In this document: piece by piece, positions 2,706-12,848 of the stretch
How the letters are laid out: each line of letters starts with the position of its first letter
Numbering within the stretch: the first letter of the stretch is position 1
Assembly: GCF_014643255.1 (NCBI RefSeq)
Contig: NZ_BMJI01000003.1
Span: forward strand, 62,001-126,000
Direction of reading: 5' to 3'
DNA from: Tersicoccus solisilvae
GTDB taxonomy: Bacteria > Actinomycetota > Actinomycetes > Actinomycetales > Micrococcaceae
DNA length: 64,000 nucleotides
Translations under genes and position numbers: made by a program
The notes under the pieces: model-generated
Told to the model about the DNA's origin: nothing
Database searches by the model: none
What the model saw: only the letters and a program-made list of their open reading frames with translations

Positions 2706-4679
2706 TCAGAACGGTGGGTCTTCCGGATCCGCGACGTAGGTGCGACCGGCCGGCGACGTCCAGGTCAGCCGTGCCGCAGCCTCGCGACGATCGACCTCAG
2801 CGAACCAGCCTGATCGGGGTGCCGCGGAGGAGCGTGCCGCATCATCGGTCCCCGTACCCGGATCGGCCCCTTCCTGCTCCCGGCCGGCGAGCGATGGGCA
2901 ACGCAGCGTGTCGTCGGGGGTCCAGGATCCCCTGCTCGACGGCGATCGTCCCGGGCCGTCGACCTCCACCGACCACCCGGACTGGTGCTTGAGCACGTGG
3001 TGCTTGCGACACAGGTGCGCCAGGTTGTCGGCCTCGGTCCTGCCGCCGTCGACCCACGCGGTGACATGGTCGACGTCGCACCGGTCCGCGAGTCTGCGGC
3101 ACCCGGGGAAGCGGCAGGTCACATCCCGTACGGCGAGGGCGCGGCGGAGCTGTTGGGGGATCCGGTACTGCCGCCCGTCGGCGACCGCCACCGGGATCAC
3201 CGTCGTCGGCAACGGCCCGGCTCCCGCCTCGTGCAACGGCGGTGAAGAAGTGGCTTCGGGCAAGCGGTCACGCATCGGTGGGTGCGGCGACGGACCGTCG
3301 CGCGTCGGTGGTGAGCCACCGGCGGTGACCACGAGGCTGAACGACACCGCGAGGCCGGCGAGTCGACGTGCTTCCTCAGCGGCGATGGGACCGAGTGGGC
3401 TGAGGTCACCGGGGTGGCCGTCGCCGAGCAGGGTGGCCGCCGGAACGGTCAGGACTACCTGCGGCACGGGGGCGACGTCCCGCACGACCGCCCGACTCGC
3501 GTCGTCATCGGGCACGGGTGCCGGCCGAGTTCTTCCGCCGGTGGGTCCCCGTCGGGCCGGTTGCCCGTCGGCCGGCTGGGCCGGTTGCCCGTCGGGCGAC
3601 GACGGCGCCGCTGCCCCGCTCAGACCCGCTGTCAAGACGTCCACGTCGCTGACGAGGCCGCCGAGGAGGTCGGTGAGCACGTCCGCGCGCAGCTGGGCCA
3701 CGGTACGGTTCTTCGCTGCGGACGGCGCGTCTTCCGCACACTCGGTCTGCTGGAGCGATCGCGCGAGAGCAGACAGTCGGCCGTCGATCCGGTAGGCGAC
3801 GGCCGACGGGAGCAGCGCGCTCAACCGAGCCATGCCGTCGCGGTCGGGGCTGATGCGGACGAAGCGTTCGGTCAGGGCAGCGGAGTGCCGCTGGGAGAAC
3901 GTCTGCGGGTGGCACTGCTCGTGGAGCCGGCGGGCACGAGCGGAGAGCTTGCTCCTGCCGTCTCCCCGTCGGGCGGCGTCGAGCAGACCGTTCTCCGTGG
4001 CCTCGATGGCGTGCAGGAGCTGGTCGTGCGTCGCTTCGTCAGGGGCGGAGGCGAGGTCAGCGGCGTAGTCACCGACCTCGGCGGCGATCAGCGATGCGGC
4101 AGGCGCGGCGATCTCACCGTTGCGCAGCGCCGCGTCCGTCGACGTCAGCCGCTCGGCGAGCAACTCCGCACCGATGAGCATCCCGTGGGCGGCCGCCTCG
4201 CTGATGCGAAGCGCGCAGGCGATCTCGGCGACACCGCTCCGCTCCCCCACCGCCACGCGTTGAGCGCGTGACAGCCCGTGCTGACCGAGACGGTCGAGGT
4301 CGTCGTCGAGCTCGGGATGCGCGTCGACCCACCGCGTCTGCTCGGCGCACGATGCCCGCATGGTCTGCAGGATCAGTCGATTCTTCGCCCAGGCCAGCAG
4401 CGACTCGAGTCGGCGAACGACGTCGAGCGCCCCGACCGAGGCGGTCAGGTCCGGCAGGCCGTCCGCGCCCGACGAGGCCGCGCGGAGGATTCCGGCCAGG
4501 GCGTCGACCGGCTCGACGGCAGGATCCTGCGACCCGGCACTCTCGACGTGATCGGGGTGGCCGGTACCCGCGGCCCGCGGCGTCGTCGCGGCCAGGAGGC
4601 TCACCGCATCGGGCAGCCCGGGGAGCACAGCCGTCGTCGGCCTGCTCTGCTGCATCGGGAAGCCCGCTTCGCCTTCCAT
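2706..4679 (-). CDS. DUF222 / HNH endonuclease domain protein
   Basis: 657 residues. It has a large helical DUF222-type N-terminal region (ALDVVRRLESLLAWAKNRLI, ARRLHEQCHP, FVRISPDRDGMARLSALLP), a low-complexity Pro/Gly/Arg linker with repeats of PADGQPA, and a C-terminal HNH motif near residues 525-565 (CRFPGCRR, CDVDHVTAWVDGG, DNLAHLCRKHHVLKH). These multicopy actinobacterial proteins have been likened to intron- or 13E12-repeat-type elements; their role is unknown. ATG 4679 is chosen; an in-frame TTG at 4691 is an alternative. Monocistronic. Confidence 0.88.
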   Translation of the reverse strand: MEGEAGFPMQQSRPTTAVLPGLPDAVSLLAATTPRAAGTGHPDHVESAGSQDPAVEPVDALAGILRAASSGADGLPDLTASVGALDVVRRLESLLAWAKNRLILQTMRASCAEQTRWVDAHPELDDDLDRLGQHGLSRAQRVAVGERSGVAEIACALRISEAAAHGMLIGAELLAERLTSTDAALRNGEIAAPAASLIAAEVGDYAADLASAPDEATHDQLLHAIEATENGLLDAARRGDGRSKLSARARRLHEQCHPQTFSQRHSAALTERFVRISPDRDGMARLSALLPSAVAYRIDGRLSALARSLQQTECAEDAPSAAKNRTVAQLRADVLTDLLGGLVSDVDVLTAGLSGAAAPSSPDGQPAQPADGQPARRGPTGGRTRPAPVPDDDASRAVVRDVAPVPQVVLTVPAATLLGDGHPGDLSPLGPIAAEEARRLAGLAVSFSLVVTAGGSPPTRDGPSPHPPMRDRLPEATSSPPLHEAGAGPLPTTVIPVAVADGRQYRIPQQLRRALAVRDVTCRFPGCRRLADRCDVDHVTAWVDGGRTEADNLAHLCRKHHVLKHQSGWSVEVDGPGRSPSSRGSWTPDDTLRCPSLAGREQEGADPGTGTDDAARSSAAPRSGWFAEVDRREAAARLTWTSPAGRTYVADPEDPPF

Positions 4680-4691
4680 GAATCGAGTCAA

Positions 4692-5219: not shown

Positions 5220-6137
5220 ATGCGTGAGCTCGTCGTCCTCGGCACCGCCTCCCAGGTGCCCACCCGCACGCGCAACCACAACGGGTATCTGCTGCGGTGG
5301 GACGGCGAGGGGCTGCTGTTCGACCCGGGCGAGGGCACGCAGCGGCAGATGATCCTCGCCGGCGTCTCGGCCAGCCAGGTCACCCGCATCTGCCTCACCC
5401 ACGTGCACGGCGACCACTGCTACGGCCTGCCGGGCGTACTCTCGCGGATGGCGCTCGACGGGGTGTCCCACCCGGTGCATCTGCACTACCCCGCGTCCGG
5501 CGAGTCGGTGGTGGCGGCCCTCGTCTCCCTCGCCTCCCCCGGCGTCGACCTGCGCCTCCACCCTCACGGCGGTCCCGGCGAGTTCGCCGACGGCCTGCAC
5601 GTGCGCCCACTGGACCACCGGATCGAGGCCTACGGCTACCGGCTGGTCGAGCCCGACGGGCGGACGCTGCTACCGGAGCGGCTGGCGGACGCCGGGATCG
5701 CCGGACCCGACGTCGGGCGCCTGCAGCGCGGGGGCAGCGTCGACGGCGTCCGTCTCGAGGACGTCAGCGTGCCGCGGCCCGGCCAGCGGTTCGCGTTCGT
5801 CATGGACACCGCGCCGTGCGTGGGGGCCGAGGAGCTGGCCGACGGCGCCGACGTGCTCGTCGCCGAGTCGACCTTCGCGGACGACGACGCCGAGCTGGCC
5901 GCGCAGTACCGGCACCTCACGGCGGGTCAGGCCGGCGCGCTGGCGGGACGCGCCGGCGTCGGGACGCTGGTGCTCACGCACTTCTCGTCCCGGTACACCG
6001 ACGTCGAGCCGTTGGCCGCGCAGGCGAGAGCGCACGCCCCGGACACGACCGTCCTCGCCGCCGGCGACCTCGACCGGATCGATTTCCCGAAGCGGCGCTC
6101 CCCTCCTGACCTGCGCGGACACCACCGGCTAGGGTGA
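5220..6137 (+). CDS. rnz: Ribonuclease Z (tRNA 3' processing endonuclease)
   Basis: 305 residues, normal for the short-form metallo-beta-lactamase-fold RNase Z. It starts with the typical MRELVVLGTASQVPTRTRN. The Zn-binding motif HVHGDHCYGLPG is at residues 61-72, a second metal ligand Asp is in FVMDTAPC near residue 194, and the C-terminal ligand His is in LVLTHFSSRY. It cleaves 3' trailers from tRNA precursors in the cytoplasm. No Shine-Dalgarno is seen. Its TGA (6135-6137) lies just ahead of the radical SAM start, so read-through into that operon is likely. Confidence 0.93.
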   Translation: MRELVVLGTASQVPTRTRNHNGYLLRWDGEGLLFDPGEGTQRQMILAGVSASQVTRICLTHVHGDHCYGLPGVLSRMALDGVSHPVHLHYPASGESVVAALVSLASPGVDLRLHPHGGPGEFADGLHVRPLDHRIEAYGYRLVEPDGRTLLPERLADAGIAGPDVGRLQRGGSVDGVRLEDVSVPRPGQRFAFVMDTAPCVGAEELADGADVLVAESTFADDDAELAAQYRHLTAGQAGALAGRAGVGTLVLTHFSSRYTDVEPLAAQARAHAPDTTVLAAGDLDRIDFPKRRSPPDLRGHHRLG

Positions 6138-6142
6138 CCGGT

Positions 6143-7750
6143 ATGACACAGCCCGGCTCGGGGATGCCGCTGCGTGACTACCGCATCCATCGCTACGTCA
6201 ACGCGTTCTGTCCCCGGTGCCACGAGGAACGGCCCGAGCAACCCCTCGCCGACGTCCGCCGGCTGTCGGGCTGGCTCGCCGACCGGGACGGGCAGATCTG
6301 GCTCGAGCGGGGCTGTCCCGAGCACGGCCTGATCAGCACCCTCTACGACGAGTCGGCCGAGATCCTCACCTACCTCGAGCAGTGGACGGCCCCGACCAAG
6401 GTGCACGGGCCGGACACGCTCGGCAACTTCAAGCCGGTGCCCTCGGCGTACGAGGACGGGCTGCCCCAGATGCAGACCCAGCACACCTGCATCCTGCTCG
6501 AGGACCTCACCGACCACTGCAATCTGCGCTGCCCCACCTGCTTCGCCGAGTCCGGCCCAGCCGCGGCCGCCGTCGCCCCGCTCGCCGAGGTCCTCGCCTC
6601 CGTCGACGCGCGGCTGGCCAGGGAGAACGACCGGATCGACGTCCTCATGCTGTCCGGCGGCGAGCCCACCCTGTATCCGTGGCTCGAGCAGCTGCTGGAG
6701 CACCTTGTCGCCCGGCCCGTCGTGCGCATCCTGATCAACTCCAACGGCCTGCGGATCGCCCAGGACGACGCGCTCGTCGCCACCCTGAAGAAGCACCGCG
6801 AGCGGGTGGAGATCTACCTGCAGTACGACGGCGAGTCCGCCGAGTCCGCAGCGTTCCACCGCGGCGCCGACATCCGCCGGTTCAAGCAGCGCGCCATCGA
6901 GCGGCTCTCGGCCGCCGGCGTCTTCATGACCCTGACGATGACGGCGACCAAGGGTGTGAACGACGACGAGATCGGCGCCGTCATCCGCACCGCGATGGCG
7001 ACGCCGTACGTCGGCGGCGTCACCGTGCAGCCGGTGTTCGGCTCCGGGCGCTCCGCCGGCGTCGACCCGACCGACCGGCTCACCCACACCGGCGTCCTCG
7101 CCCGGCTCGGTCCGCAGACCAACGACGAGATCACCTGGCGCGACCTGACCGCCCTGCCCTGCAGCCACCCGCACTGCTGTTCCGTCGGCTACCTGCTCGA
7201 GGACGACAGCGGGACGTGGCGGTCGCTGACGTCGCTGATCGGGCACGAGCGGCTCAAGCAGTTCCTCGACCTGCAGCCGGACCTCATCGCCAACCGGATC
7301 GCCGACTCCAACGTCAACGCCAGCATCCGCGCCGTCGTGAAGAACTCGCTGCTGGACCTGCTGAGCGAGCAGTCCTCGCTCTCGCACCCGTCGATGAGCG
7401 ACATCTGGCGGGACATCTGCGTGAACTGCGATCTCGGCATCGGCACCCTGGCCACGCTCGCGGCGTCCAGGCTGCCCGGCCAGCACCAGCGGCTGCGCGC
7501 CATGATGGGCGAACGCGTGCTGCGCATCACCGTCAAGCCGTTCATGGACATCAACACGATGATCGAGGAGCGGCTCACCCAGTGCTGCGTGCATGTCGCG
7601 ACCGTCAACGAGTCAAGCGGCGCCCACCAGTGCGCGCCGTTCTGCGCGGTGCAGGCCTGGACGCCGCTCTCCCGGACGAGGATCTCGACGGCGACCGGCG
7701 CGACGACGGCCGGGGACGGACGTCGGCAGCTGCCGGTGAGCGTGCGGTGA
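6143..7750 (+). CDS. Radical SAM protein of the Tes / MJ0619 (COG1964) type
   Basis: 535 residues. The N-terminal Cys pair is CPRC at 23-26, followed by the family hallmark GCPEHG. The radical SAM motif is DHCNLRCPTCF, with C126, C130 and C133 in exact CxxxCxxC spacing, and SGGEPT at 171-176. The C-terminal part has the features of tetraether/membrane-spanning lipid synthases: PCSHPHCCSVGYLL (about 340), VNCDLG, VKPFMDINTM, QCCVHV (about 481) and CAPFCAVQAW (497-506), presumably auxiliary Fe-S ligands. Archaeal relatives join lipid tails by C-C bonds; the substrate here is unknown. ATG 6143 is chosen because AGGG at 6131-6134 is well spaced; GTG 6134 is possible. First of four overlapping or adjacent genes encoding membrane proteins. 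Confidence 0.85.
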   Translation: MTQPGSGMPLRDYRIHRYVNAFCPRCHEERPEQPLADVRRLSGWLADRDGQIWLERGCPEHGLISTLYDESAEILTYLEQWTAPTKVHGPDTLGNFKPVPSAYEDGLPQMQTQHTCILLEDLTDHCNLRCPTCFAESGPAAAAVAPLAEVLASVDARLARENDRIDVLMLSGGEPTLYPWLEQLLEHLVARPVVRILINSNGLRIAQDDALVATLKKHRERVEIYLQYDGESAESAAFHRGADIRRFKQRAIERLSAAGVFMTLTMTATKGVNDDEIGAVIRTAMATPYVGGVTVQPVFGSGRSAGVDPTDRLTHTGVLARLGPQTNDEITWRDLTALPCSHPHCCSVGYLLEDDSGTWRSLTSLIGHERLKQFLDLQPDLIANRIADSNVNASIRAVVKNSLLDLLSEQSSLSHPSMSDIWRDICVNCDLGIGTLATLAASRLPGQHQRLRAMMGERVLRITVKPFMDINTMIEERLTQCCVHVATVNESSGAHQCAPFCAVQAWTPLSRTRISTATGATTAGDGRRQLPVSVR

Positions 7751-7757
7751 GCCCGTC

Positions 7758-8078
7758 ATGAGCGACTACGCGCACCTGAACCAGTACGACGACGCCGTGG
7801 GCCGACCGGCGCCGTTCGACCCGCTCCGGCTGTGCGTGGTCACGACGGTCGCGGCGATCGCCTGTGTGGCCGGGCCGCTGGCGGTCCTGGTCTTCGCGCT
7901 GGTGGCGATCGGCGGGTACCTGCGGGCGCGGCGTGCCGGGCTGATGCGGTCGAAGTGCCGGCTCGGCGACACGAGGCTGGTGATCGCGTATCTGGCGGTG
8001 ATCGCCGTCGCGTCCGTGGCCGCAATCCCGCTGTGGGTGACGATGTGGCTGTCGCTGATTCCGGAGGTGACGCGATGA
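7758..8078 (+). CDS. Small two-helix membrane protein
   Basis: 106 residues with two hydrophobic stretches (about 28-52 and 75-98) separated by a basic loop RARRAGLMRSKCRLGDTR. It starts 7 bases after the radical SAM stop and its TGA overlaps the ATG of the Lgt-like gene (ATGA at 8075-8078), so translation is coupled. No family is recognised. Context suggests it is an accessory subunit, perhaps anchoring the radical SAM enzyme or the Lgt-like protein at the membrane. Confidence 0.75.
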   Translation: MSDYAHLNQYDDAVGRPAPFDPLRLCVVTTVAAIACVAGPLAVLVFALVAIGGYLRARRAGLMRSKCRLGDTRLVIAYLAVIAVASVAAIPLWVTMWLSLIPEVTR

Positions 8079-8908
8079 TTCCGACGCTGGCCGACCTGAT
8101 CCCGGGGCTTCCGCCGCTGGGGATGCACTCCGTCATGGTGGCGCTGGCCTTCGCGGCGGCCGGCGTCGTCTTCTCGATCGAACGACGACGACGGGGCGTC
8201 ACCGATCCGCGGATCGCGTACGTCGTGCTCGGCTGCGTCGCCGGCGCCGCGCTGGCCGCGCGGCTCGGCACCTGGTTCCAGCACCTGAACCCGGCCGAGA
8301 ACCTCAGCCTGGTCGACCAGTTGCTGCACGGCAACGCGTCGTTCCTCGCGGCGCTCTTCGGGGCGTGGATCGGGGTGCACGTGTCCAAGGCGATCGTGGG
8401 CTACCCCGACCGGACCGGTGACCTGTTCGCCCCGGCCGTGGCGCTGGCGATGGCGATCGGCCGGGTCGGGTGCCTGCTGACGGAGAACCCCGGGCTGCCC
8501 ACCGGATCCGGGTGGGGCATCGTGCTCGACCCGGCCGCCGCGGCCCGCGTAGGCGCGCCCGCCGGCGTCGGACTGCATCCGAGCTTCGTCTACGAGATCG
8601 CGTTCCACCTGGTGGCGTTCGGCGTGCTCTGGTTGTGGCTGCGGTTCACGCCGGTCGCGCCGGGCGAGCTGCTGACGCTGTACATCGCCGCGTACGCGGG
8701 CTTCCGGTTCCTCATCGAGTTCGTGCGCGACAACGACGTCGCGTGGCTGGGCCTGACGCGACCCCAGCTGTTCCTCGCGGTGACGATCCCGGTGCTGCTC
8801 GTGCGGATCGCCCTGCTGGTGCGCCGCGGGGCGTTCGACGGCGTGCTTCCGGGCTCACGTCGTTCGGCTTCCGGTGAGGCGGGTGTGACGCGTGAGCGAC
8901 ACGCCTGA
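8075..8908 (+). CDS. Prolipoprotein diacylglyceryl transferase (Lgt)-like membrane protein
   Basis: 277 residues with about seven hydrophobic segments. Lgt-like landmarks are MAIGRVGCLLTENPGLPTGS (compare GRxGNFxNGE), LHPSFVYEIAFHL (compare HPSQLYE) and FRFLIEFVRDND (compare RxxxExxR). The segment equivalent to the Lgt SFHGG motif reads ASFLAALFGAWIG, so the catalytic His is replaced by Leu and ordinary Lgt chemistry is doubtful. Shine-Dalgarno GGAGGTG is at 8063-8069. It sits in an operon with a lipid-synthase-type radical SAM protein, suggesting it handles a diacylglycerol-type lipid. Confidence 0.8.
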   Translation: MIPTLADLIPGLPPLGMHSVMVALAFAAAGVVFSIERRRRGVTDPRIAYVVLGCVAGAALAARLGTWFQHLNPAENLSLVDQLLHGNASFLAALFGAWIGVHVSKAIVGYPDRTGDLFAPAVALAMAIGRVGCLLTENPGLPTGSGWGIVLDPAAAARVGAPAGVGLHPSFVYEIAFHLVAFGVLWLWLRFTPVAPGELLTLYIAAYAGFRFLIEFVRDNDVAWLGLTRPQLFLAVTIPVLLVRIALLVRRGAFDGVLPGSRRSASGEAGVTRERHA

Positions 8909-9365
8909 GGAGCCGTGGCGGCCGGAGGAGCGGTCGGGTGCCCCGGAGCGACCGGGTGACCCCGTGCCGCCCGGGGCACCGGTCCCGCCCGAGCCGGCGC
9001 CGTTGCTCCCCCCGGCGCCACCGGTCTCCGGAGGCGCTCCCGGTAACCCCTATGGGCCGCCGGCCTCGGCTCCGGGTTCCCCCGGGATGAGCACCGGAGC
9101 GGGCGTCGGCATCGGCGTCGGTATCGGCTGCGGCGCGATGGTCCTCGCGACCGTCATCGGGCTGGTGACGCTGTCGGCGATCGCCACCGTCCTGCCCGGC
9201 CCGATCGGCTTCCTGTGGCCGTTCATCGCGATCCTCGTGGTCGGCGTCGTCATGATGTTCTCGCCGAGGACGAGGCCGATCGCGACCGGGATCCTGATCG
9301 TGACCCTCGTGTTCTCCATCGTCGTCATCGGCCCGTGTGTGGGGCTGCTGAGCGGCGAGCTGTAG
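8892..9365 (+). CDS. Proline-rich membrane protein
   Basis: 157 residues. The first 65 are Pro/Gly/Glu-rich and presumably cytoplasmic and disordered. Three hydrophobic helices follow (about 75-103, 107-124, 132-153), starting with a glycine-rich GVGIGVGIGCGAMVL. The start is GTG 8892, overlapping the Lgt-like gene by 17 bases, so it is the last gene of the operon. This layout is common in actinobacterial membrane proteins of unknown role. Nothing catalytic is visible. Confidence 0.75.
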   Translation: MSDTPEEPWRPEERSGAPERPGDPVPPGAPVPPEPAPLLPPAPPVSGGAPGNPYGPPASAPGSPGMSTGAGVGIGVGIGCGAMVLATVIGLVTLSAIATVLPGPIGFLWPFIAILVVGVVMMFSPRTRPIATGILIVTLVFSIVVIGPCVGLLSGEL

Positions 9366-9992: not shown

Positions 9993-10125
9993 AGGCGTCG
10001 CTGCCCCAGGATGGCGACCCGCGTTGATTCGACGCCCTGCCCGCAGTTTGAAAACACTCGGCGGTCACTTCTTACGAAGGATGCCACCGATCGGGCACAC
10101 TTACCCCAGAACTCACGGGGGTGAC

Positions 10126-11979
10126 ATGGGCTCTTGTGCGACGCTTGATCGCAACACAGGGTGGGAGCGTACTGAGACCGACCTCAGCCGCGCCGTGCAG
10201 GACGGTGCCACCGTGCCCGTCTCGTTCGAGCCGCGCCTGATCAAGGTGCAGCTCGCGGCCGGTGTCGACGAGGAGACGCTCGTCGCCGCCGCTGACGAGG
10301 CCACCCTCGGGCTCGACGTCACCGAGCGGTCGCGGATGGAGCAGAGCGTCGCTGTCCTCAACGCCGTCTACGGGGCGCCGGAGCGGATCACCGCCCTGGC
10401 CGCCGATCTGGTGGCGCACTGGGAGGCCCGTCGGGAGGCGATGCGGCCGTTCATCGAGGTGCCGGGCAAGGCGATGATCGTCGGCGTCACCCGTGAGGTG
10501 TGCGCGCGGCTGTACGCGGAGATCGTCAAGCTGCGGCCAGAGTGGCACTCCGACGAGCTGGATCGCGGCGTCATCAAGGTCGTCTACTCGGGCGACGCGA
10601 CCGACCTGCCGCCCGTCTCCGCCCACGTACGCCGGGACTCGGAGAACGCGACCATCAAGCAGCGGCTCAAGGACCCCGACGACGAGCTGGAGCTGGTGAT
10701 CGTCAAGGACATGATGCTCACCGGGTACGACTCCCCACCGCTGCACACCCTGTACCTGGACCGACCGCTCAAGGGCGCGCTGCTGATGCAGACGCTGGCA
10801 CGGGTGAACCGGACATTCCGCGGCAAGTCCGACGGGTTGCTGGTGGCGTACGCGCCGCTGGCGGAGAACCCGAGCAAGGCGCTGGCCGAGTACACGCCGA
10901 CGGACCGGGAGAACAAGCCGGTGGGGCGGAACGTCGACGAGGCGGTGGCCCTGGCGACCACGCTGGTCGGCCAGATTCGGGCGCTGCTGGTCGGGCATGA
11001 CTGGCAGTCGGCTGCGGCGCGTGGTGGGCTGAAGGGGTACATCGACGCGCTCCTCGGTGCAGTCAACTACCTGCGGTCGCCGGAGACGCCGGGCAACCAG
11101 GTCTCCAAATCGGCCGACTCGCTTGCCGTCCGATTCCGCTCGCTGTCCGGTCAGCTGTCCCGGGCGTGGGCGCTGGCGTGTGGTCGGGAAACGCTGGCTT
11201 CGCTGCTCGGCGAGATCCGGGCGTGCGAGCAGATGCGCGTGTGGATGGCGAAGTTCGACGCGCAGGAGCGGCAGGACAGCGGGCAGCCGGTGCCGGCAGA
11301 CATCCAGCGCATGCTCGCCGGACTGATCGACACGGCGACGGCGACCGGCGACGTGCTCGACATCTACGCGGCCGCCGGCCTGCCGAAGCCCTCGCTGGAC
11401 GACCTGACGCCCGAATTCTTCCAGAAGGCACAGCAGGCGAAGAACCCGTCGCTGGCGATCGAGGCGCTGCGGAAGCTGGTGTCCGAGGAGTCGGCGCGCA
11501 CGACGCGAAACAACACGATCCGGCAGCGCCTGTTCTCGGAGCGGATCACCGAGCTGATGACGAAATACACCAACCAGCAGCTGACCTCGGCCGAGGTGAT
11601 CTCGGAGATGCTCGAGCTGGCGCAGGAGCTGGTGAAGGAGCTGGCGCAGGAGCTGGTGAAGGAGGCGGACCGCGGGAAGCAGTTCACTCCCCCGCTGTCG
11701 TCCGACGAGCTGACCTTCTACGACGCGGTGTCGCAGAACGACTCGGCCGTTTCCGTGCAGGGCGAGGGCGTCCTGGCGGACATCGCCCGCGAGCTGGTGG
11801 CGGTGATGCGGCGGGACGTGCGGACGGACTGGACTGTGCGCGACGACGTCCGGGCCAAGCTGAGGTCGTCGATCAAGAGGCTGCTAGCGAAGCACGACTA
11901 CCCGCCGGACAAGGCACCCGAGGCCATTGTGCTGGTCATGGAGCAGATGGAGTCGATGGCGGCACGATACGTCGCGTGA
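10126..11979 (+). pseudogene. hsdR: Truncated type I restriction subunit HsdR (C-terminal part)
   Basis: 617 residues from ATG 10126, preceded by a good GGGGGTG ribosome site. From residue 18 on it matches the second half of HsdR: SRAVQDGATVPVSFEPRL, the second RecA-like helicase domain (MIVGVTREVCARLY, VKDMMLTGYDSPPLHTLYLD, MQTLARVNRTFRGK) and the helical C-terminal region. The N-terminal PD-(D/E)xK nuclease, Walker A and DEAH motifs of full-length HsdR (about 1000 residues) are missing, and no hsdM or hsdS lies nearby, so it cannot restrict DNA. A 24-bp exact in-frame duplication is present. The junction falls near 10150-10185. Confidence 0.8.
11617..11664 (+). repeat. Exact 24-bp tandem duplication inside the hsdR relic
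   Basis: Bases 11617-11640 and 11641-11664 are identical and encode LAQELVKE twice in frame. The lack of any divergence suggests a recent slippage event. Confidence 0.9.
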
Positions 11980-12089: not shown

Positions 12090-12848
12090 TTGGGCAATGA
12101 CGATTACACCGAACGGAGTTCGCGCGAAGCGGTCGACGACGCGCTTACCAATAAAGCGGGGGCCCGGGCTCGAAAGAAGGCAGCGCTAGCCCTCGGAGAT
12201 GCGATGATCGAAACCGGAGAGATCCTTTGGCATGCAGGATACTTCGTTGGACCCGATCGCGTAATTGGCGACTGGCCAAGCGAATTCGGAAGTAACAGCG
12301 TCGTCGGAATTTCTACTGCCTTGCAAATTGGCGGCGAACTGATTGAAAGTTCCGCGCGTTTACTCGAAGCCGAGAAGCGCTATGCTGCGATGGCGTTGAT
12401 TCGACAAGTCGTTGAAGTTGAATATCTCGGGTGGGCATTTGCGGAAGACGCCAATCGGACCGCTGCGACGTGGCTCCATGCCGATTCTGAAGAGCGACGA
12501 AAGTTGTGGCAGCCTCGCCACCTCCGCGATTCATCCTCAGGCTTGTTTCGCGGAAGTGACTACGCACTTCATTGCGAACGGGGCGGACACCCAACTCCGG
12601 AAGCCCGGCGATTTCTCCCCGGACATTCGGACGTAATTGATGAAGGATTCATCTGGTACGAAATTTGCGTCCACGGCGGCAGTGCCTGGGACTACTTTAT
12701 GACGGCACTAGACCGCCAACCGAGTTCGACTCCATTCCAGGATCACATCGAAAGCTTGAAGTCTTTCTCCACCTTCCGAAAGGCGTGGGAGAATTGGCAA
12801 GCGGATGACATGCTGATCGACCTTGTAGGAACAGACCCGATGACTTAG
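12090..12848 (+). CDS. Hypothetical protein in AT-richer accessory DNA
   Basis: 252 residues from TTG 12090 (no in-frame ATG nearby; the true start may be a little downstream). Codon use is visibly more A/T-rich than any neighbour (many AAT, GAA, TTT, ATT codons), so it is probably acquired. The body looks helical: MALIRQVVEVEYLGWAFAED, WLHADSEERRKLWQPRHLRD and RGGHPTPEARRFLPGHSD. The spaced Arg/Glu and helical look are vaguely HEPN-like, but no catalytic RxxxxH is clear. It follows the hsdR relic and may be a restriction- or defence-island passenger. Function unknown. Confidence 0.65.
   Translation: MGNDDYTERSSREAVDDALTNKAGARARKKAALALGDAMIETGEILWHAGYFVGPDRVIGDWPSEFGSNSVVGISTALQIGGELIESSARLLEAEKRYAAMALIRQVVEVEYLGWAFAEDANRTAATWLHADSEERRKLWQPRHLRDSSSGLFRGSDYALHCERGGHPTPEARRFLPGHSDVIDEGFIWYEICVHGGSAWDYFMTALDRQPSSTPFQDHIESLKSFSTFRKAWENWQADDMLIDLVGTDPMT

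Follow-up and report, generated by a model that had tools for sequence, protein, structure and literature searches.

Which substrate could a radical S-adenosylmethionine (SAM) enzyme and a relative of the diacylglyceryl transferase Lgt have in common, and why are their genes found together? The question is raised by a stretch of 64,000 nucleotides of Tersicoccus solisilvae (contig NZ_BMJI01000003.1, positions 62,001 to 126,000 of the forward strand), referred to as a whole as the window, in which a group of four genes lies at positions 6143–9365. An initial annotation of these genes had read them as an undescribed cassette that modifies lipids or lipoproteins in an actinobacterium. The gene set turned out to be conserved and, in the open-access literature, no paper pairing these genes was found. 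The gene association, the folds and the conserved residues described below are the established part of the analysis. From its sequence, the cassette seems to encode an undescribed system that acts on membrane lipids or lipidates proteins.

A conserved four-gene cassette

Open reading frame analysis identified four genes on the plus strand, packed as a single unit. We named them, in gene order, rSAM, TM2 (the two-helix protein), LGTL (the Lgt-like protein) and CTC (the Pro-rich protein):

6143..7750, plus strand: Tes/TrsS-like radical SAM protein rSAM, 535 amino acids (Pfam, phmmer match to 7tol, fold match)
7758..8078, plus strand: two-helix membrane protein TM2, 106 amino acids (alignment of 21 homologues; confined to cassette genomes)
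8075..8908, plus strand: Lgt paralogue LGTL, 277 amino acids (PF01790, structure model, best PDB match 5azb)
8892..9365, plus strand: Pro-rich membrane protein CTC, 157 amino acids, of a family with an invariant C-terminal G-x-C

The gap between the rSAM stop codon and the ATG of TM2 is 7 bases long. The overlaps described in the initial annotation are real and amount to 4 bases (ATGA) between TM2 and LGTL and to 17 bases between LGTL and CTC. An alternative GTG start for rSAM is present at 6134, 9 bases upstream of 6143. Pfam domains were assigned to rSAM (Radical_SAM, 5e-17; Zn_ribbon_HMPTM, an N-terminal metal-ribbon domain, 1.6e-11) and to LGTL (PF01790, LGT; E 4e-27, 95.4 bits vs. a cut-off of 24.9), while TM2 and CTC match no Pfam family.

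A genome-collection scan yielded 80 loci that were kept, all of them actinobacterial according to their record titles, from Microbacterium, Agromyces, Leucobacter, Knoellia, Janibacter, Nocardioides, Ornithinimicrobium, Nocardia, Mycobacterium, Actinoplanes, Microtetraspora and others. The best rSAM matches are 86–88% identical and come from Microbacterium. Neighbourhoods were counted in the 76 loci that span 9 kb or more. rSAM adjoins LGTL in all 76, in either order: LGTL lies downstream of rSAM in the Microbacteriaceae and upstream of it in most other families. TM2 was detected at 64 of these loci and the C-terminal motif of CTC at 63. Conservation of the gene set is hence stronger than the initial annotation had guessed. 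Besides the cassette genes, no other conserved neighbours appeared at the surveyed loci, and no fusions between cassette genes were found.

Co-occurrence was analyzed across 247 evenly sampled Actinomycetes genomes. Seventeen of them, spanning several families and 9–10 genera, encode a cassette-type rSAM (over 900 bits); one further genome has a weak relative (209 bits). LGTL is present in all 17, CTC in 16 and TM2 in 12, and none of the three occurs in any of the 230 genomes lacking a cassette-type rSAM (Fisher p of 1e-26, 3e-24 and 8e-17, respectively, in a test that ignores shared ancestry). As, in addition, 26 rSAM homologues that are 65–88% identical keep the motifs invariant or nearly so, the gene set is not a product of chance. 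The rSAM and LGTL pair is also found outside the class, within the same phylum (loci L095, L098 and L099); rSAM relatives at 27–30% identity (L086–L094) are accompanied by no LGTL match. Copies of the cassette are located on plasmids of Mycobacterium avium and M. branderi, close to insertion sequences. Taking into account the co-occurrence of the genes and these plasmid copies, the cassette is closed, patchy in distribution, sometimes plasmid-borne and probably mobile.

Some loci depart from the usual layout. In two mycobacterial plasmid cassettes, L116 (7223–7992) and L118 (7140–7995), LGTL and rSAM are separated by a tandem pair of CTC genes, and TM2 is not detectable; the former is near a Xre/RES gene pair and IS110, the latter near IS200/IS605. 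In the Actinoplanes loci L070 and L083, CTC-like genes are situated upstream of the cassette and are encoded on the other strand.

Architecture of the radical SAM protein

The initial annotation had placed rSAM among the Tes-type enzymes on the basis of short motifs. All of them are found in the protein (CNLRCPTC, PCSHPHCC, VKPFMD, QCCVHV and CAPFC), the cysteines of the first being invariant in the homologue alignment, and they belong in part to the following features:

6209..6325, plus strand: rubredoxin-like metal site C23-x2-C26...C58-x2-H61 (invariant in 27 homologues; Tes pattern)
6518..6541, plus strand: radical SAM cluster motif C126-x3-C130-x2-C133 (from the sequence; invariant)
7532..7645, plus strand: C-terminal cluster region VKPFMD...QCCVHV...CAPFC (alignment with MJ Tes)

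When rSAM was compared by phmmer with proteins of solved structure, the best match was Tes (tetraether synthase, also GDGT-MAS; MJ0619, structure 7tol), which couples the tails of archaeal lipids, with an E value of 1e-35 over residues 16–501, followed by a maturase of ribosomally synthesized and post-translationally modified peptides (RiPPs) at 1e-4. An AlphaFold model of moderate confidence (predicted local distance difference test score, pLDDT, 63; predicted template modelling score 0.70) gave the same answer: 7tol is by far the best fold match (Foldseek 8e-20; Z 21.4 across 361 residues, the runner-up having Z 12.9).

The likeness to Tes, a protein with four metal sites (PMC9433317), extends to the domain order, the fold, the radical SAM motif and the rubredoxin-like site (C9-x2-C12...C33-x2-H36 in Tes; PMC9433317). 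C345, C481, C482 and C501 of rSAM align with Cys of the C-terminal cluster region of Tes and are candidate ligands. Unlike Tes, to which it is 22% identical, rSAM is encoded beside an Lgt paralogue and has non-Cys residues at the three columns corresponding to C73, C77 and C80 of the [Fe4S4]N cluster, the His being kept as H114. K465 and V485 replace Met439 and Tyr459 of Tes and are both invariant in the alignment of the cassette family, whereas Met439 and Tyr459 are universal in 1000 archaeal Tes homologues (PMC9433317). The scores against the curated NCBIfam models are far below cut-off for both Tes (NF045702, 159 vs. 450) and the radical SAM (seleno)protein TrsS (NF045646, 196 vs. 490). In a maximum-likelihood tree that included one Tes sequence and several long-branched rows, the 17 cassette rSAM rows group into a single clade (support 100/100; branch length 4.1 changes per column), distinct from both Tes and the TrsS-like proteins. 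Thus, homology and fold bear out the Tes-type assignment, but not membership of the Tes clade: rSAM is Tes-class in architecture and yet not a member of Tes. The protein has no membrane segment and is therefore presumably cytosolic.

Several observations were made on relatives of rSAM. In L098, from another class (minus strand, about 1278–1498), the protein contains an insert of near-identical 30-residue repeats, DLARTRGRGSRGPERVVPGGSGGGGAPPEE, in frame after the residue that matches window residue 355. On a M. vanbaalenii plasmid, L157 groups a TrsS-like radical SAM gene with genes for a methyltransferase, another radical SAM protein, CcdA and a disulfide oxidoreductase; it represents a separate system within this superfamily, one with a redox flavour. 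A role in anti-phage defence was considered and rejected: the similarity of rSAM to viperin (pVip; 37 bits) is limited to about 85 residues of its core, with no full-length match, and LGTL, TM2 and CTC have no PADLOC match.

The Lgt paralogue and the small membrane proteins

For LGTL a good model was obtained (pLDDT 84), and E. coli Lgt (5azb) is the one PDB entry that it matches significantly. Alignment of both proteins singles out four sites:

8126..8128, plus strand: H18, equivalent to Tyr26 of E. coli Lgt; invariant
8345..8347, plus strand: L91, at the position of H103 (SFLAALFG)
8462..8473, plus strand: R130-x2-C133, in the Lgt signature GRxGN, with Asn146 replaced by Cys; invariant
8705..8728, plus strand: R211, E215 and R218, equivalent to R239, E243 and R246; invariant in 24 homologues

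LGTL thus shares with Lgt the equivalents of R143 (R130), R239, E243, R246, E151, G154 and HPSxxYE; in E. coli Lgt, several of the residues kept bind phosphatidylglycerol (PG) or are indispensable (PMC4728403, PMC13251419). It differs from Lgt in three substitutions (Y26H, H103L and N146C), in a shorter arm region and in always adjoining an rSAM gene. The HGGL region, which in Lgt is the proposed binder of the lipobox peptide, is remodelled, as would be expected of a protein with a different acceptor. The scores of LGTL against the NCBIfam lgt equivalogs are below the cut-offs (TIGR00544, 53 vs. 119; NF000778, 64 vs. 334). As the 3.34-Mb genome includes two further, canonical lgt genes, LGTL is not the housekeeping enzyme.

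The loss of the catalytic His had been presented in the initial annotation as the special mark of LGTL. Across LGTL homologues the H103 column is indeed occupied by Leu (Ile in one), but Tyr, Trp or Phe may stand there in Lgt proteins of other phyla, and Trp is the residue of actinobacterial Lgt proteins (PMC13251419), the two canonical Lgts of this genome included; the loss is therefore ordinary and not diagnostic. Judging from the alignments, the real marks of the LGTL family are the replacements of Y26 by His and of N146 by Cys, both invariant. The same pair of replacements is present in MSMEG_5408, the second M. smegmatis Lgt homologue, which is presumed to have low activity (PMC13251419) and which, we infer, belongs to the LGTL family.

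TM2 has two predicted helices. In its 21 homologues, two cysteines are invariant: C26 (DPLRLC), ahead of the first helix, and C67 (S-K/R-C), in a positively charged loop. By the positive-inside rule, C26 would be extracytoplasmic.

The CTC family, with its invariant C-terminal Cys, is a new finding of this work and was beyond the reach of the initial annotation. The N-terminal Pro-rich parts of these proteins vary widely, and what is common to the family is a C-terminal element, which in the window corresponds to:

9270..9362, plus strand: positive residues, about 20 hydrophobic residues, G147-P-C149 and an 8-residue tail (profile and geometry of 89 homologues)

In the 89 homologues, found with a profile of the same C-terminal region, this element comprises positive residues (net +1 to +4), 19–20 hydrophobic residues (24 in one of the 89), G-x-C and a tail that usually has 5–13 residues after the Cys. 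The distribution of charge predicts an extracytoplasmic Cys, and the layout resembles that of a lipoprotein signal peptide. A canonical lipobox, [LVI][ASTVI][GAS]C, is present in none of the 89 proteins, and cleavage would be disfavoured by the residue at position -1, which is mostly Pro, Phe or Ile. With one score cut-off, six loci have a duplicated CTC; a looser cut-off gives as many as three copies, in one Microbacterium locus. The genome of T. solisilvae has one CTC and no convincing CTC-like protein elsewhere. Phage-borne CTC tails were also considered and discarded: the weak matches obtained (phrog_1172, E 0.004; PF24191, E 0.011) lead to BigNuz gp25, which contains no Cys.

A possible mechanism and its alternatives

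We tentatively propose that the cassette combines modification of phospholipid tails with lipidation of the C-terminal Cys of CTC, a mechanism that, taken as a whole, we consider possible rather than probable. LGTL, given its retained residues, would bind PG and pass its diacylglyceryl group to the extracytoplasmic C-terminal Cys of CTC instead of to a lipobox. That Cys may then serve as an uncleaved, C-terminally placed lipobox; its candidacy as acceptor comes from the matching side of the membrane, from a geometry like that of a signal peptide and from the remodelling of the acceptor region in LGTL. Less firmly, and from its fold only, rSAM might, like Tes, take hydrogen from the alkyl chains of phospholipids and might then join or thiolate them; Tes forms a sulfur-bound lipid intermediate (PMC9433317). 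Modified, possibly cross-linked tails would be carried either by the lipid donor or by the completed anchor, and TM2 may hold the soluble rSAM at the membrane complex. The type of function proposed in the initial annotation, the joining of fatty-acid tails, would be that of the bacterial membrane-spanning lipid synthase Mss (described in PMC11868695).

The co-occurrence of the genes, the Tes-like fold, the kept PG-binding arginines, the geometry of CTC and the presence of two ordinary Lgts all support the proposed mechanism. Several points weigh against it. Six residues are required in E. coli Lgt, including Y26, H103 and N146 (PMC13251419); as these three are all changed in LGTL, the protein may have lost transferase activity, and transfer may be nil. 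rSAM has neither the [Fe4S4]N Cys ligands nor the Met439 and Tyr459 of Tes, although Tes variants at the latter two positions stay active in vitro (PMC9433317). The uniform G-x-C spacing of CTC is in part built in by the profile used to find the homologues. Most genomes have one copy of CTC, and the protein is confined to the cassette, which fits a subunit as well as a substrate. Finally, both the lipid and the protein product are predicted only. Were LGTL to diacylglycerylate an uncleaved C-terminal Cys of CTC and rSAM to couple the tails of that lipid or of its donor, a new form of protein lipidation would result, with a tail-modified, perhaps membrane-spanning anchor in actinobacteria including mycobacteria; this outcome we hold to be unlikely.

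About as likely as the proposed mechanism is a pathway restricted to lipids, itself no better than a tentative reading, in which rSAM couples or modifies acyl tails of phospholipids within a complex with LGTL, TM2 and CTC, the Lgt fold acting as a scaffold that presents PG without any protein being lipidated. The Tes fold and the candidate C-terminal cluster cysteines of rSAM would be accounted for, as would the replacement of Y26, H103 and N146 in LGTL and the usual occurrence of CTC as a single-copy, dedicated partner; moreover, PG is bound at two sites in the Lgt fold (PMC4728403). What such a pathway leaves unexplained is the strict retention of R143, R239, E243 and R246 and the invariant, predicted extracytoplasmic cysteines of CTC and TM2, and the multiple copies of CTC at some loci also argue against it.

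It is unlikely that rSAM acts instead on TM2 or CTC, for instance at the conserved Cys, in the manner of RiPP maturases, and that LGTL anchors or processes what is formed. The next-best fold matches of rSAM include SkfB and SuiB, and the cassette does encode dedicated small proteins with an invariant Cys, but the lipid enzyme Tes is by far the closest fold, the charge of CTC predicts a Cys that is extracytoplasmic and hence away from a cytosolic enzyme, and the Pfam search revealed no precursor-recognition domain.

Quite unlikely, too, is that LGTL represents a further diacylglyceryl transferase for ordinary lipoproteins. Its PF01790 score above cut-off and the description of MSMEG_5408, with identical Y26H and N146C replacements, as an Lgt of presumed low activity would agree with such a role. 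An enzyme of this kind would not be expected to be strictly coupled to an rSAM gene, to be absent from 230 of the 247 genomes, to score far under the equivalog cut-offs (53 vs. 119) or to have a lipobox-contact region that is not conserved.

That rSAM is a variant performing TrsS chemistry, as its best-scoring, full-length curated model might suggest (196 bits vs. 159 for Tes), is very unlikely, since that score is far from the TrsS cut-off of 490, rSAM forms a separate clade, the methyltransferase paired with the TrsS-like protein in the plasmid loci L157 and L158 has no counterpart in the cassette, and the N-terminal auxiliary [Fe4S4]N cysteines kept by most TrsS-like proteins are lost.

With respect to the surroundings of the cassette in the window, an upstream RNase Z gene overlaps the GTG start, but a link to the cassette was discarded, as this gene is beside it in none of the 80 other loci. 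A DUF222/HNH protein, of a type common in actinobacteria, is encoded at 2706–4691 (minus strand). The sequence at 10024–11979 (plus strand) matches profile positions 469–1023 of 1029 for the R subunit of a type I restriction enzyme; with this C-terminal part present and the N-terminal half absent, it looks like a remnant. Between 12001 and 16000 the GC content drops to 0.61, compared with about 0.72 in the surroundings; this region includes a short gene without assigned function (12090–12848) and minus-strand genes that, by sequence, resemble ribonucleotide reductase subunits.

The components of the cassette are variants of known families, and it is their combination, together with the CTC family, that appears to be undescribed. 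Bacterial relatives of Tes are widespread and their functions are open (PMC8941075, PMC9433317); the cassette gives one branch of these relatives fixed partners and therefore narrows its substrate to the membrane. The system becomes testable in ordinary laboratory actinobacteria, and the cassette offers a reason for the odd mycobacterial Lgt homologues that carry Y26H and N146C. If the C-terminal Cys of CTC is in fact lipidated, it would represent a protein anchor unlike that of N-terminal lipoproteins.

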